Source: Parasegetibacter sp. NRK P23 (GTDB lineage Bacteria > Bacteroidota > Bacteroidia > Chitinophagales > Chitinophagaceae). Taken from it: 64,000 nt of DNA. The position numbers and the translations under genes are program-made. The number at the start of each line of letters is the position of its first letter. Positions within the stretch are counted from its first letter, which is position 1. Under the pieces are notes generated by a model, which had not been told where the DNA came from, did not search any database, and saw only the letters and a list, made by a program, of their open reading frames with translations. This document shows, one piece after another, positions 13,616-17,018 of the stretch. The DNA lies in NCBI RefSeq assembly GCF_023721715.1, contig NZ_JAMDLG010000001.1:2519784-2583783 (forward strand), read 5' to 3'.

Positions 13616-14332
13616 TCAGGAACGTCGTGCTACTGTACTCGCCCCACTCTGCTTAATATCTTTGGCCGTGGCGCTGCCCTTGAAATAAATATCTGAAGCG
13701 CCGCTGGCACTCGCGGCAATTTCTTTGTTCACGCTGATCTGGATGTCGGAGGCGCCGCTTGCGGAAGCTTTGCAATATTCCGTTTCCAGGCCATAAGCTT
13801 TGATATCCGAAGCGCCGCTCACTTCCAGTTTGGCATGTTGCGCCTTTCCCGCCAGGAAAGAATCGGAACTGCCGCTCTGGTGCACAGCAAGGTTCTTAAC
13901 CTCAAGGGTGCCCTTGAAATCGGAGGATCCGGACAAATTGATCTCAAGGTCGTCCTGCTTCAATACCCCTGAAATCAGCACATCACAAGCCCCGGAAGCA
14001 CTTATTCTATGCAATACGGGAGCCGAGATATACGCCTTTAAAGGCTTTCCGATCCGGTTAAAAGACTTCATTCCCTTCTCCGCATAAATCCTTAAAACAC
14101 CATCTTTCACCTCCGTTTTCAGGTAAGGAACCAGCTTTTTTTCCGAAGCGCTGACGGCTAGCGCGATTTCATTGGATTGAGAAATATACAGATCGATTCC
14201 CCCCGACACTTCCACCGCAACGAACTTTTCAATATCGCGCGGGGTTACGTTTTCATCTACAACGATCTTCTCCTGGGCCACTGCGGAGAAAGACGCCAGG
14301 AAGCATCCTGCTAAAAAAAGAAGATTTTTCAT
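13616..14332 (-). CDS. GIN-domain (DUF2807) exported protein
   Basis: 238 residues with a Sec signal peptide (MKNLLFLAGCFLASFSAVAQ). The rest is a head GIN domain, a right-handed beta-helix-like fold common in Bacteroidota; its function is unknown, perhaps adhesion or envelope-related. Periodic GASDI, GSSD and SGASD turns (about 130-235, at least five copies) mark the helical coils. Transcribed alone and divergently from the TPP-regulated receptor; the two promoters overlap. Confidence 0.85.
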   Translation of the reverse strand: MKNLLFLAGCFLASFSAVAQEKIVVDENVTPRDIEKFVAVEVSGGIDLYISQSNEIALAVSASEKKLVPYLKTEVKDGVLRIYAEKGMKSFNRIGKPLKAYISAPVLHRISASGACDVLISGVLKQDDLEINLSGSSDFKGTLEVKNLAVHQSGSSDSFLAGKAQHAKLEVSGASDIKAYGLETEYCKASASGASDIQISVNKEIAASASGASDIYFKGSATAKDIKQSGASTVARRS

Positions 14333-14383: not shown

Positions 14384-14412
14384 CAAAGGAAATGTTACAA
14401 GTTTTTGGCAAA
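14384..14412 (-). promoter_or_regulatory. Promoter of the GIN-domain gene
   Basis: On the minus strand, TTTG (14409-14412), 17-base spacer, TTCCTTTG (14384-14391), one mismatch to TAnnTTTG. The leader to the ATG would be about 45 bases. Confidence 0.55.
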
Positions 14413-14435
14413 AAAAAACGGGCGGCATACCTTTG
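14404..14435 (+). promoter_or_regulatory. Promoter of the TPP riboswitch transcript
   Basis: TTTG (14404-14407), 20-base spacer, TACCTTTG (14428-14435), a full consensus match about 40 bases before the riboswitch P1 stem. Confidence 0.75.
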
Positions 14436-14474
14436 GACCGTCTTTCAAAGGAGCTCCAACGTAAAGACATCAAG

Positions 14475-14556
14475 TTCCCGGGGTGCTTAATTCACATTTT
14501 GTGAAAGCTGAGATCATACCCGTAGAACCTGGACAGGGTAATGCCTGCGCAGGGAA
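14475..14556 (+). ncRNA. TPP (THI-box) riboswitch
   Basis: All conserved blocks of the thiamine pyrophosphate aptamer are present in order: P1 TTCCC / GGGAA closing the element, GGGGTGC at 14480-14486, the GCTGAGA block at 14507-14513, ACCCG and AACCTG, then ACAGGGTAATGCCTGCGCAG before the closing strand. TPP binding normally switches genes off. The element precedes a TonB receptor start by 86 bases. No clear terminator hairpin follows, so control may act on translation or by a structure not recognised here. Confidence 0.95.
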
Positions 14557-14642
14557 GGTGGAAGGATTCGCGCAATATTGTTCTCCCCTCTTCACAATCG
14601 CAGCATTTCCAAATTCAATTTTTCAACTTTAAAAAAAGAAAC

Positions 14643-17018
14643 ATGAAAAAATTGTTTTTGGGGATATGCTTGTTTGTATTTTCCCCAATGCTATTCGCCC
14701 AATCTATTTCGGGCAAAATCACCGATGCCGTTACCGGAGAAGTTATTGCCGGGGCATCCGTTCAGTTGGTCCACCATTTCGCGGTTTCCGCCGGATCCAA
14801 AGGCGATTTCCGCATCGCTCCCGTTAAACCGGGAAGTTATCTATTGAAGATCAGCGCCGTTGGTTACAATGAAACCCAGGTACAGGCCCAGGTGCCCGGT
14901 GCAGCAAACCTGGTCATCAGGCTTAACCGCACCGAACTGCTGCTGCAGCCCATCGAAGTGAAAGCCACCCGCGCTTCCGAGATTGCGCCTTTTTCGAAAA
15001 CCAATCTCACCAAAAAGGACCTGGAAAAGAACAACATCGGCCAGGACCTGCCTTTCCTCCTGCAACAAACCCCCTCCATGGTGGTGAGTTCCGACGCTGG
15101 AAACGGCGTAGGTTATACCGGATGGCGCATCAGGGGAACCGATGTGCAACGCATCAACATGACCATCAACGGGATCCCCTATAACGATCCCGAATCGCAT
15201 GGTACTTTCTTTGTAAACCTCCCCGATTTCGCTTCCTCCGTGAGCAGCGTACAGATACAACGCGGGGTGGGCACTTCCACCAATGGCGCGGGCGCGTTCG
15301 GAGGCACCATCAATTTCAGCACCAACGAATTCAACGAGAAGGCCTACGGCGAAGCCAATAATTCCTACGGCTCCTTCAACACCTGGAAACACACGGTAAA
15401 AGCCGGTTCCGGACTACTGAACAATCATTTCACCATCGACGCACGCTTTTCCAAAATTGCCAGCGACGGCTTCGTGGACCGTGCCACCTCCGACCTGAAA
15501 TCGGCTTACCTTTCCGCAGCGTGGCTCAATGAAAAAAGCTCCGTCCGCTTCAACGTGATCACCGGTAAAGAAAAAACTTACCAATCCTGGAACGGGCTGC
15601 CTGAAAGCAAACTCGACAACGACCGCACTTATAATTCAGTGGGAACCGAAAAGCCCGGAACACCCTACGACAATGAGACCGACAATTACCAGCAGGACCA
15701 CTACCAATTGTTTTACAACCAGGAACTGTCGCCTAAACTGAAACTCAACACCGCACTTTTCCTTTCAAGGGGACGCGGTTATTACGAGCAGTACAAAGCC
15801 GATCAATCGTTCTCTGACTACGGACTTGCTGATCCGGACGTGAACGGCGACCCGGTTTCGGAAACGGACCTGATCCGTCAACTCTGGCTCGACAACCATT
15901 TCTATGGCGGCATTTTCTCCCTCCAATATAAAAACGGCAAACATGAACTCACTTACGGGGGCGGCGTGAACCAATACGACGGCAAGCACTACGGCAAAGT
16001 GATCTGGGCCGAAACAGGCATCCCCAAAGACCATGAATGGTACAATTACACCGCGATGAAGCGCGACTTCAACACGTACGCCAAATGGCAGTTTGAAGCA
16101 TTCCGCAACTTTTACACCTTCGCCGACCTGCAGTTCCGGTACGTGAAATATGATATCGATGGATTCAGAAGTACACCCGGATTAAGCGCTTACAACCAAT
16201 ACCGTTTTTTCAACCCTAAAGCAGGTGTATCCTATCTTTTCGGCAATGGGTTCACCGCATTCGCCTCCTACTCCATCGGGCAGAAAGAACCCAACCGGGA
16301 TGATTTTGAAGCAGGCGCTTTATCCAAACCGAAGCACGAACTGCTCCGCAACATTGAATCCGGTCTGCAGTTCAGGAACAGCCGTTACCAATTGGCGGCT
16401 ACTTTCTACCACATGGATTACAAAAACCAACTGATCCCTACCGGGAAAATCAATGATGTGGGCGCCGCCACGCGTGTGAACATACCCGATAGTTACAGAA
16501 TGGGGATAGAACTGGAAGCCGCAGCACGCCTTACCGACTGGGCCAGCGTTTCAGGCAATCTTACCCTGAGCAGGAACAAGGTGAAGAACATTACGGTGTA
16601 CTACGATAACTACGACGACCCGAACTATGTACAGTTATCAGAAACGTTGAAAAAAGCCGATATCGCCTTCTCCCCTTCCATTGTGTCGTCCTTCTCCCTG
16701 GATTTGGTTCCCTTCAAACATGCGCGGGTAAGTCTGCCCGGAAAATATGTTGGGCGTCAATACCTGGATAATACCTCCCGAAAAGAAAGGAGCCTGGACG
16801 ATTTTTATGTGCAGGACCTGAGAATGCAATACAGTATTCAACAGAAACTCGTTCCGGAACTCACGCTGATGTTCCATGTCAACAACGTATTCGACCGGAA
16901 ATATGAGCCGAACGGTTACACCTTCAGCTACCAGTATGGCGGCGCTTTTACTACGGAGAATTATTATTACCCGATGGCAGGCGTGAACTGGATGGCGGGA
17001 GTGAACATCAGATTTTAA
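14643..17018 (+). CDS. TonB-dependent receptor under TPP control, predicted thiamine-compound importer
   Basis: 791 residues from MKKLFLGICLFVFS, a Sec signal ending FAQ. Then a carboxypeptidase regulatory-like domain (about 20-105, ISGKITDAVTGEVIAGA), a plug domain (about 120-230, GWRIRGTDVQRINMTINGIP) and a 22-strand barrel ending in an aromatic residue (NIRF). The receptor lies alone behind a TPP riboswitch. Receptors in this position in Bacteroidota are predicted to import thiamine or its precursors across the outer membrane; that substrate is inferred from regulation only. The frame also opens at 14541, but that start lies inside the riboswitch. A terminator follows. Confidence 0.9.
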   Translation: MKKLFLGICLFVFSPMLFAQSISGKITDAVTGEVIAGASVQLVHHFAVSAGSKGDFRIAPVKPGSYLLKISAVGYNETQVQAQVPGAANLVIRLNRTELLLQPIEVKATRASEIAPFSKTNLTKKDLEKNNIGQDLPFLLQQTPSMVVSSDAGNGVGYTGWRIRGTDVQRINMTINGIPYNDPESHGTFFVNLPDFASSVSSVQIQRGVGTSTNGAGAFGGTINFSTNEFNEKAYGEANNSYGSFNTWKHTVKAGSGLLNNHFTIDARFSKIASDGFVDRATSDLKSAYLSAAWLNEKSSVRFNVITGKEKTYQSWNGLPESKLDNDRTYNSVGTEKPGTPYDNETDNYQQDHYQLFYNQELSPKLKLNTALFLSRGRGYYEQYKADQSFSDYGLADPDVNGDPVSETDLIRQLWLDNHFYGGIFSLQYKNGKHELTYGGGVNQYDGKHYGKVIWAETGIPKDHEWYNYTAMKRDFNTYAKWQFEAFRNFYTFADLQFRYVKYDIDGFRSTPGLSAYNQYRFFNPKAGVSYLFGNGFTAFASYSIGQKEPNRDDFEAGALSKPKHELLRNIESGLQFRNSRYQLAATFYHMDYKNQLIPTGKINDVGAATRVNIPDSYRMGIELEAAARLTDWASVSGNLTLSRNKVKNITVYYDNYDDPNYVQLSETLKKADIAFSPSIVSSFSLDLVPFKHARVSLPGKYVGRQYLDNTSRKERSLDDFYVQDLRMQYSIQQKLVPELTLMFHVNNVFDRKYEPNGYTFSYQYGGAFTTENYYYPMAGVNWMAGVNIRF

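Follow-up and report, generated by a model that had tools for sequence, protein, structure and literature searches.

The closest described system is OMthi (BT2390) of Bacteroides thetaiotaomicron. In the available part of that report OMthi is a TonB receptor under its own thiamine pyrophosphate (TPP) riboswitch, located apart from pnuT-tnr3 (PMC5613172). Single deletion of OMthi was described there as harmless, while growth at low thiamine was impaired when it was combined with deletion of pnuT or of biosynthesis. In Variovorax a TPP-controlled TonB receptor inside an operon with biosynthetic genes has been predicted to carry thiamine, according to the accessible text of PMC10409787. The present locus is a lone TonB receptor gene preceded by a TPP aptamer. 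It lies in a 64,000 nucleotide (nt) stretch of Parasegetibacter sp. NRK P23 (family Chitinophagaceae, class Bacteroidia), the whole of which is referred to as the window. The TPP riboswitch is proposed to lower expression of the receptor at high TPP, and the receptor to import thiamine or its phosphate into a predicted auxotroph. We give this reading a probability of about 85%, its substrate, sign of control and switch being those that we infer.

The TPP aptamer and its promoter

An earlier note, made from the letters of the window, had placed a THI-box 86 bases before the receptor ATG and asked for a covariance search with the TPP model. An Rfam cmscan of the 64 kb with 4227 families gave two matches above gathering, one tRNA and RF00059 (TPP). 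The TPP aptamer lies at 14469-14572 on the plus strand with a score of 60.4 bits, the gathering threshold being 54.3 (E = 2.4e-9). All core blocks of the THI-box were located at the expected places, with GGGGTGC from 14480, CTGAGA at 14508-14513 and AGGGA at 14551-14555. The receptor ATG at 14643 is 86-87 nt 3′ of AGGGA, in agreement with the distance in the note. Several non-standard pairs are marked in P1 of the window aptamer in the Rfam alignment. An in-frame ATG at 14541, inside the aptamer, was rejected as the receptor start. It would add 34 codons (14541-14642), and the frame is open in only 4 of 107 relatives (L011, L027, L079, L109), which was taken as chance.

The same note had described a full consensus promoter before the aptamer, and both boxes are at hand. 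A -33-type box, TTTG, is located at 14404-14407 (plus strand), 20 nt 5′ of a -7-type box, TACCTTTG (TAnnTTTG), at 14428-14435 (plus strand). The promoter (TTTG-20-TACCTTTG) ends 44 nt 5′ of the aptamer GGGG. From the consensus we take these boxes to be a promoter of the Bacteroidota type. Family leaders are enriched in them. Of 107 family leaders, 78 have the -7 box TANNTTTG (TAnnTTTG) no more than 90 nt 5′ of the aptamer core, compared to 5.6 in mononucleotide shuffles, and 17 have both boxes together, compared to 0.4. No promoter was found by a sigma-70 scan.

Pairing of aptamer and receptor in the family and class

The receptor gene (14643-17018, plus strand) encodes 791 amino acids and, based on Pfam domains and a family search, a predicted OMthi-like thiamine importer. 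CarboxypepD_reg, Plug (PF07715) and TonB barrel (PF00593) domains were above the Pfam cut-off. The closest named receptors have 57-61% identity and are labelled Flavihumibacter. The receptor was found in 112 of 117 family genomes at E ≤ 1e-60, in one place per genome and in some split in two pieces. All but two of these loci were fetched, giving 110 with the window included; G024 and G045 were excluded as the 5′ end of the gene was missing.

A TPP aptamer was found upstream of the receptor in 108 of the 110 loci with covariance model R1, which was built from 21 aptamers, 19 of them from the same loci, and has no P1, so the hits there are partly by construction. With this model L105 and L106 had no aptamer before the receptor. 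Rfam alone detected the aptamer in 19 of the 20 loci tested (L007-L026), missing L026. Outside the family an aptamer lay within 500 nt before the receptor in 66 of 66 class loci, with some scores down to 27 bits. Outside the family 128 genomes have the receptor, and the loci come from 64 of these; they consist of 26 of the best-scoring, 20 picked for a nearby kinase and 20 for none found. The aptamer was also present in 76 of 80 loci with names, which range from Flavihumibacter through Pedobacter and Pontibacter to Bacteroidales bins. Three of the misses (L286, L289, L307) start within 75 nt of a contig end, and L230 is without an aptamer. The pairing of aptamer and receptor is fixed across the class and is no local accident.

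It is very improbable that the window aptamer is a relic which has lost its regulation. The score is just 6 bits above gathering and P1 is weak in the receptor leaders, the best P1-like stem of the 108 leaders having a mean of 3.7 Watson-Crick pairs. Against this, the aptamer is kept in 108 of 110 loci whose receptors have 41-68% identity to that of the window (best local alignments).

Two adjoining weak TPP-like matches were found before the receptor with model R1 in L184, L186, L274, L290, L292, L294 and L301. Those of these loci that are named come from Olivibacter, Pedobacter and Mucilaginibacter. In L184, L290 and L294, the three tested, Rfam predicted a single weak aptamer each, so these may be tandem aptamers or single ones with a long insert.

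Predicted thiamine auxotrophy and the probable substrate of the receptor

The window genome is 99.87% complete. It has no candidate for ThiC and no match to the canonical thiamine pyrophosphokinase (TPK, PF04263), and its best match to ThiD scored 26.6 bits compared to a cut-off of 205. As ThiC, canonical TPK and ThiD were unrecognised in the genome, the bacterium is a predicted thiamine auxotroph.

ThiC was found in 20 of the 117 family genomes. The receptor is lacking in five genomes (G005, G078, G089, G096, G104), each of which has ThiC, and it is present in all 97 genomes without ThiC (Fisher p = 9e-5 with related genomes treated as independent; G005 and G104 share a genus, so that common ancestry makes the test weaker than this value suggests). 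A PnuC-family match was missing in the same five genomes and in four others. Thiamine is the best candidate substrate because of the aptamer and the phyletic pattern of ThiC and receptor, with thiamine phosphates as a possible alternative. By analogy with OMthi of Bacteroides, the most likely role of the receptor is to let thiamine through the outer membrane of a predicted auxotroph. The covariance score, the promoter, the linkage and the phyletic pattern support the pairing as a TPP-controlled thiamine receptor. The earlier note had stated that TPP-controlled TonB receptors were predicted to be thiamine importers in Bacteroidota; this is so, and the available part of PMC5613172 adds the deletion test in B. 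thetaiotaomicron.

Three TPP sites were found in the window genome, one of them in the window. The second precedes an operon (L005:2475-5083) of a methyltransferase, an AIR-synthase protein and a ThiE-like protein, with a terminator-like hairpin behind the aptamer as read by eye. The AIR-synthase protein is a weak ThiL match (58 compared to 184 bits). The ThiE-like protein scored 102 compared to 145 bits and is above the cut-off of Pfam TMP-TENI. This TPP-controlled operon, together with the unmatched canonical TPK, would suit a receptor that carries thiamine phosphates or a thiamine precursor, hydroxymethylpyrimidine (HMP) or hydroxyethylthiazole (HET), instead of thiamine. We consider this improbable. 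ThiD, which is needed for the use of HMP, is nowhere near its cut-off, and the ThiM/ThiE/ThiD/TenA operons which by eye follow TPP sites of other family genomes follow none of the three in the window genome.

Proposed expression platform and switch

The leaders were sorted by the author's own patterns into class A (80), class B (11) and class C (17), and the window leader is of class A. Ten of the 108 were excluded from the leader listing as their spacers were long or unclear. The leader tests used 74 or 73 of 80 class A leaders, 7 of 11 class B and 14 of 17 class C. The ATG is mostly 50-92 nt past the end of the TPP model, which is a short spacer.

A terminator scan found none in the window leader, its sole hit being on the opposite strand inside the gene, and an intrinsic terminator was rejected as the platform of the window. 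In class A leaders terminator-like hairpins were about as frequent as chance would give (2 of 79 compared to 0.8 in shuffles). They were present in 2 of 11 class B leaders compared to 0.2 in shuffles, so that class B is not cleared of terminators, and in none of 17 class C leaders.

The proposed switching strand is the aptamer 3′ strand GGGAAGG (14552-14558, plus strand), from its ensemble pairing with the spacer. The spacer (14560-14642, plus strand) contains TTCTCCCCTCTTC (14581-14593) and GCAGCATTTCC (14600-14610) and is the putative expression platform. Class A spacers are rich in C (24%) and poor in G (10%), and C exceeds G in 73 of 74. In the comparison set of 289 regions upstream of other long open reading frames (ORFs) of the same loci, C was 18.8% and G 16.3% (p = 4e-27). 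The mean probability of pairing between GGGAAGG and spacer in class A was 0.70 compared to 0.49 with shuffled spacers in which the dinucleotides were kept (p = 2e-10, n = 73). Forcing P2 and P4 reduced this pairing by 0.24 compared to 0.10 in shuffles (p = 5e-7, n = 73) and opened the spacer by 0.049 compared to 0.028 (p = 8e-4). Six-base complements to the strand were barely more frequent in the spacer than in shuffles (about 57 of 74 compared to 51).

The start region (-20 to +10) was unaltered in openness (0.482 free and 0.479 with the aptamer forced, n = 73, p = 0.22), and start-codon sequestration was rejected on this prediction. In classes B and C folding predicted no loss of strand-spacer pairing when the aptamer was forced. 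All 7 class B leaders tested carry CTTACC, the complement of their GGTAAG strand, in the spacer, where about 2 were expected; a GGTAAG:CTTACC switch was rejected as the competition was absent from the folding. No convincing platform was found in class C leaders. A pairing of the spacer with the P4/P5 strand, CCCTGTTC:GAACAGGG, occurs in 35 of 74 class A leaders compared to about 15. It was not adopted, being missing in GATCAGGG leaders and in the window, and may follow one clade.

The switch proposed is one of P1 competition, perhaps read by Rho. When TPP is absent, GGGAAGG would pair with the C-rich spacer and the gene would be expressed. When TPP is bound the aptamer would keep the strand to itself, leaving the C-rich, G-poor spacer free, and expression would stop, most simply by Rho. 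A Rho site would fit the freed tract because TPP should turn import off. High cellular TPP would in this way lower expression of the single receptor that imports thiamine or its phosphate. The earlier note had seen no clear expression platform. This stands for the leader, where there is no terminator-like site; it does not stand for the spacer, which is not featureless once relatives are compared. The mechanism can be narrowed to a leader with no terminator, no predicted start sequestration and, in relatives, a C-rich spacer competing for the aptamer 3′ strand. This leaves fewer ways in which TPP riboswitches may act in Bacteroidota.

Several results weigh against the reading of a TPP-repressed thiamine receptor. 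The leaders are related, and the p values of the leader tests overstate independence. In the window itself the signal is weak, with a strand-spacer probability of 0.587 free and 0.566 with the aptamer forced, and the Rho step is only one that we infer. In B. thetaiotaomicron the mRNA of OMthi and pnuT had no significant response to thiamine, as given in the available part of PMC5613172. A survey of public RNA-seq, in the part of it that is available, recorded termination in six of 57 TPP riboswitches, none from Bacteroides (three species in the table) (PMC12121620). One partial ThiG match was found in the window genome (positions 118-225 of 247) at 31 bits, above the Pfam cut-off of 23, and another below it. 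These are provisionally taken to be other TIM barrels because the model rings in all 14 control genomes. The closest NCBIfam names for the receptor are heme/siderophore receptors, far under their cut-offs.

Control could also be translational, with TPP binding altering the access of the ribosome to the start region and not transcription. The window leader without a terminator, the near-chance class A hairpins and the short spacer are consistent with this, as is the unchanged OMthi mRNA (PMC5613172, available part), because of which a negative RNA-seq result alone would not refute a translational switch. The unchanged openness of the start region argues against it, with the proviso that standard folding takes no account of tertiary contacts or of standby sites for the ribosome. 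Translational control is a possible reading, with the balance leaning against it.

The NadR-like kinase and PnuC

The inner-membrane step would fall to the sole PnuC-family protein of the window genome, encoded beside a NadR-like kinase elsewhere on the chromosome. The kinase is an AAA_28 protein of 173 amino acids which is like the NadR kinase domain. It matched only the kinase part of TIGR01526 (111 bits compared to a cut-off of 341), and it is not a NadR-type fusion with nicotinamide mononucleotide adenylyltransferase. The AlphaFold model has a pLDDT of 97 and its best match is NadR (TMq 0.88 to 8x7f). Chances are about even, in our estimate, that this stand-alone protein, in which Trp 85 is invariant, supplies the missing activity of thiamine kinase or pyrophosphokinase, replacing canonical TPK across the family and much of the class and acting with PnuC behind the TPP-controlled receptor.

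PF04263 was found in two of the 117 family genomes (G031, G098), both with ThiC. The stand-alone kinase was present in 106 of 117. The genomes without a match to it are the five that lack the receptor, the two with PF04263, and G045, G055, G075 and G091 (79, 97, 93 and 60% complete). The kinase is therefore present in 106 of 110 genomes with the receptor and no TPK compared to 0 of 7 otherwise (p = 7e-9, related genomes treated as independent). Among kinase-bearing class genomes outside the family the receptor was present in 91 of 92 compared to 128 of 194 overall; kinase absences rest on a first-look filter, and tblastn recovers missed kinases in L208 and L216. In 33 of these 91 genomes the kinase and the receptor share a strand, with the kinase at most 4 kb upstream; in none is it so placed downstream. 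The genes pnuC, kinase and receptor are co-directional, with a TPP aptamer before the receptor, in 19 fetched loci, most of which were picked for adjacency. In L203 and L204, which are of one genus, a TPP aptamer also precedes pnuC-kinase (Rfam 56.3 bits in L203). In the family locus L030 the kinase is directly 3′ of the receptor. L213 and L219, again of one genus, have the order TPP-receptor-pnuC-TPK, with PF04263 confirmed.

Trp 85 was present in 67 of 67 stand-alone kinase rows below 260 amino acids (loci, not all independent). In two aligned solved NadRs the position is Phe and Tyr. Of seven longer kinase ORFs, four have Trp; the two that are NadR-type fusions have Tyr, and L199, a DUF4301 fusion, has Phe. 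The L199 ORF (L199:4886-6997; PF14134, 666 bits) follows pnuC upstream of a TPP-controlled receptor and is a clue for DUF4301. Beside the stand-alone kinase, ten family genomes contain another, longer match (330-386 amino acids); L119, the one tested, is a match to the full NadR model and lies behind a PnuC. L184, L186 and L294 contain both the kinase and a TPK-like stretch, which counts against the kinase as a replacement of TPK. The TPK-like stretch is downstream of the receptor in L184, L186, L290, L292 and L294, and that of L184, the one tested, matched no Pfam family.

A rival explanation is that the kinase and PnuC serve nicotinamide riboside salvage and are unrelated to the receptor, and we regard this as quite plausible, a little short of even. 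The nearest solved proteins are NadR, the window-genome PnuC passes the nicotinamide riboside transporter model with 103 bits (cut-off 42), and no TPP site was found at the PnuC-kinase pair of the window genome. In G007, G022, G059, G082 and G113, which have a TPP-controlled PnuC, the kinase by eye adjoins another PnuC without a TPP site among those listed. In G015, G066 and G115, also with a TPP-controlled PnuC, the kinase by eye stands apart (TPP sites among those listed). Against nicotinamide riboside salvage stand the position upstream of the receptor in 33 of 91 class genomes, the TPP-pnuC-kinase order of L203 and L204, the longer NadR-like match that ten family genomes have in addition to the kinase, and the joint absence of the kinase in the receptor-less and TPK-bearing family genomes, although it was also not found in four others. 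A thiamine kinase would fill a gap that these genomes expose. The family appears to salvage thiamine without a known kinase, and the NadR-like protein is one candidate. No such kinase is named in the parts of the open-licence literature that were searched, including PMC6593275, PMC9723704 and PMC2258182, and the replacement of TPK, if true, would be new as far as that literature shows.

Other TPP sites

The methyltransferase, ThiL-like and ThiE-like trio of the second TPP site also follows TPP in L308, L309 and L324. Operons behind TPP sites in L310-L315, L317 and L318 were read by eye as ThiM, ThiE, ThiD and TenA, a precursor salvage route.

The third TPP site of the window genome (L004:2381-2520, G000:C1:3149380) is followed immediately by a terminator-like hairpin, and none of the downstream ORFs listed was recognised as a thiamine gene. 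Twelve of 25 further family TPP sites fetched were gene-less in the same way (L319-L323, L325, L326, L328-L332), making 13 genomes in all. The hairpin was present in 13 of 13. The P1 helices differ in sequence and, in 12 of the 13, have 6-12 Watson-Crick pairs; L328 has 5. Those of L319, L323, L328 and L331 do not exceed shuffles. A sigma-54-like GGCAY..TT box was located 34-51 nt 5′ of the core in 12 of the 13 sites compared to 5 of 107 receptor leaders, the pattern having been drawn by eye from the same sequences. Judged by these features the gene-less aptamers may be non-switching TPP-binding small RNAs.

The receptor and its neighbours

No thiamine gene was recognised among the ORFs neighbouring the window receptor, as the earlier note had said. 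The divergent neighbour is a DUF2807 gene (13616-14332, minus strand), which is outside the system; in L030 an ORF that looks similar by eye also points away from the receptor. The other neighbours are tRNA-Met and, by eye, Era- and Der-like GTPases upstream and rhodanese, PASTA and Ddl-like ORFs downstream. PnuC or the kinase was found in the receptor flanks (1.5-4 kb) in one of the 110 family loci (L030). A receptor gene without adjoining thiamine genes is the usual arrangement in the family, and elsewhere in the class the receptor is often downstream of pnuC and the NadR-like kinase. The lone TPP-controlled receptor is a standing arrangement in a family where most genomes are without ThiC, and because of this uptake of the vitamin through one receptor is likely to be a growth condition for its members.

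Comparison with known systems

As in OMthi, to which it is likened by published description and gene context, the window receptor has a TPP riboswitch directly upstream. Unlike OMthi, it is found in a genome without a ThiC or PF04263 match, where PnuC is beside a NadR-like kinase with no TPP site found there. The order in L213 and L219 is that described for OMthi-pnuT-tnr3 in the available part of PMC5613172. The window aptamer has the core blocks of RF00059 and scores above gathering; it differs from that family in a leader with an apparently weak P1 and no terminator or sequestered start found, and with a C-rich spacer in relatives. The modelled fold of the stand-alone kinase is like the ribosylnicotinamide kinase domain of NadR (8x7f, 1lw7, 6gye). 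It differs from NadR in having no adenylyltransferase domain and in having Trp 85 in place of Phe or Tyr. Unlike that of Variovorax, the window receptor stands alone, with no biosynthetic operon around it. The window pair belongs to a known kind, the TPP-controlled TonB receptors.

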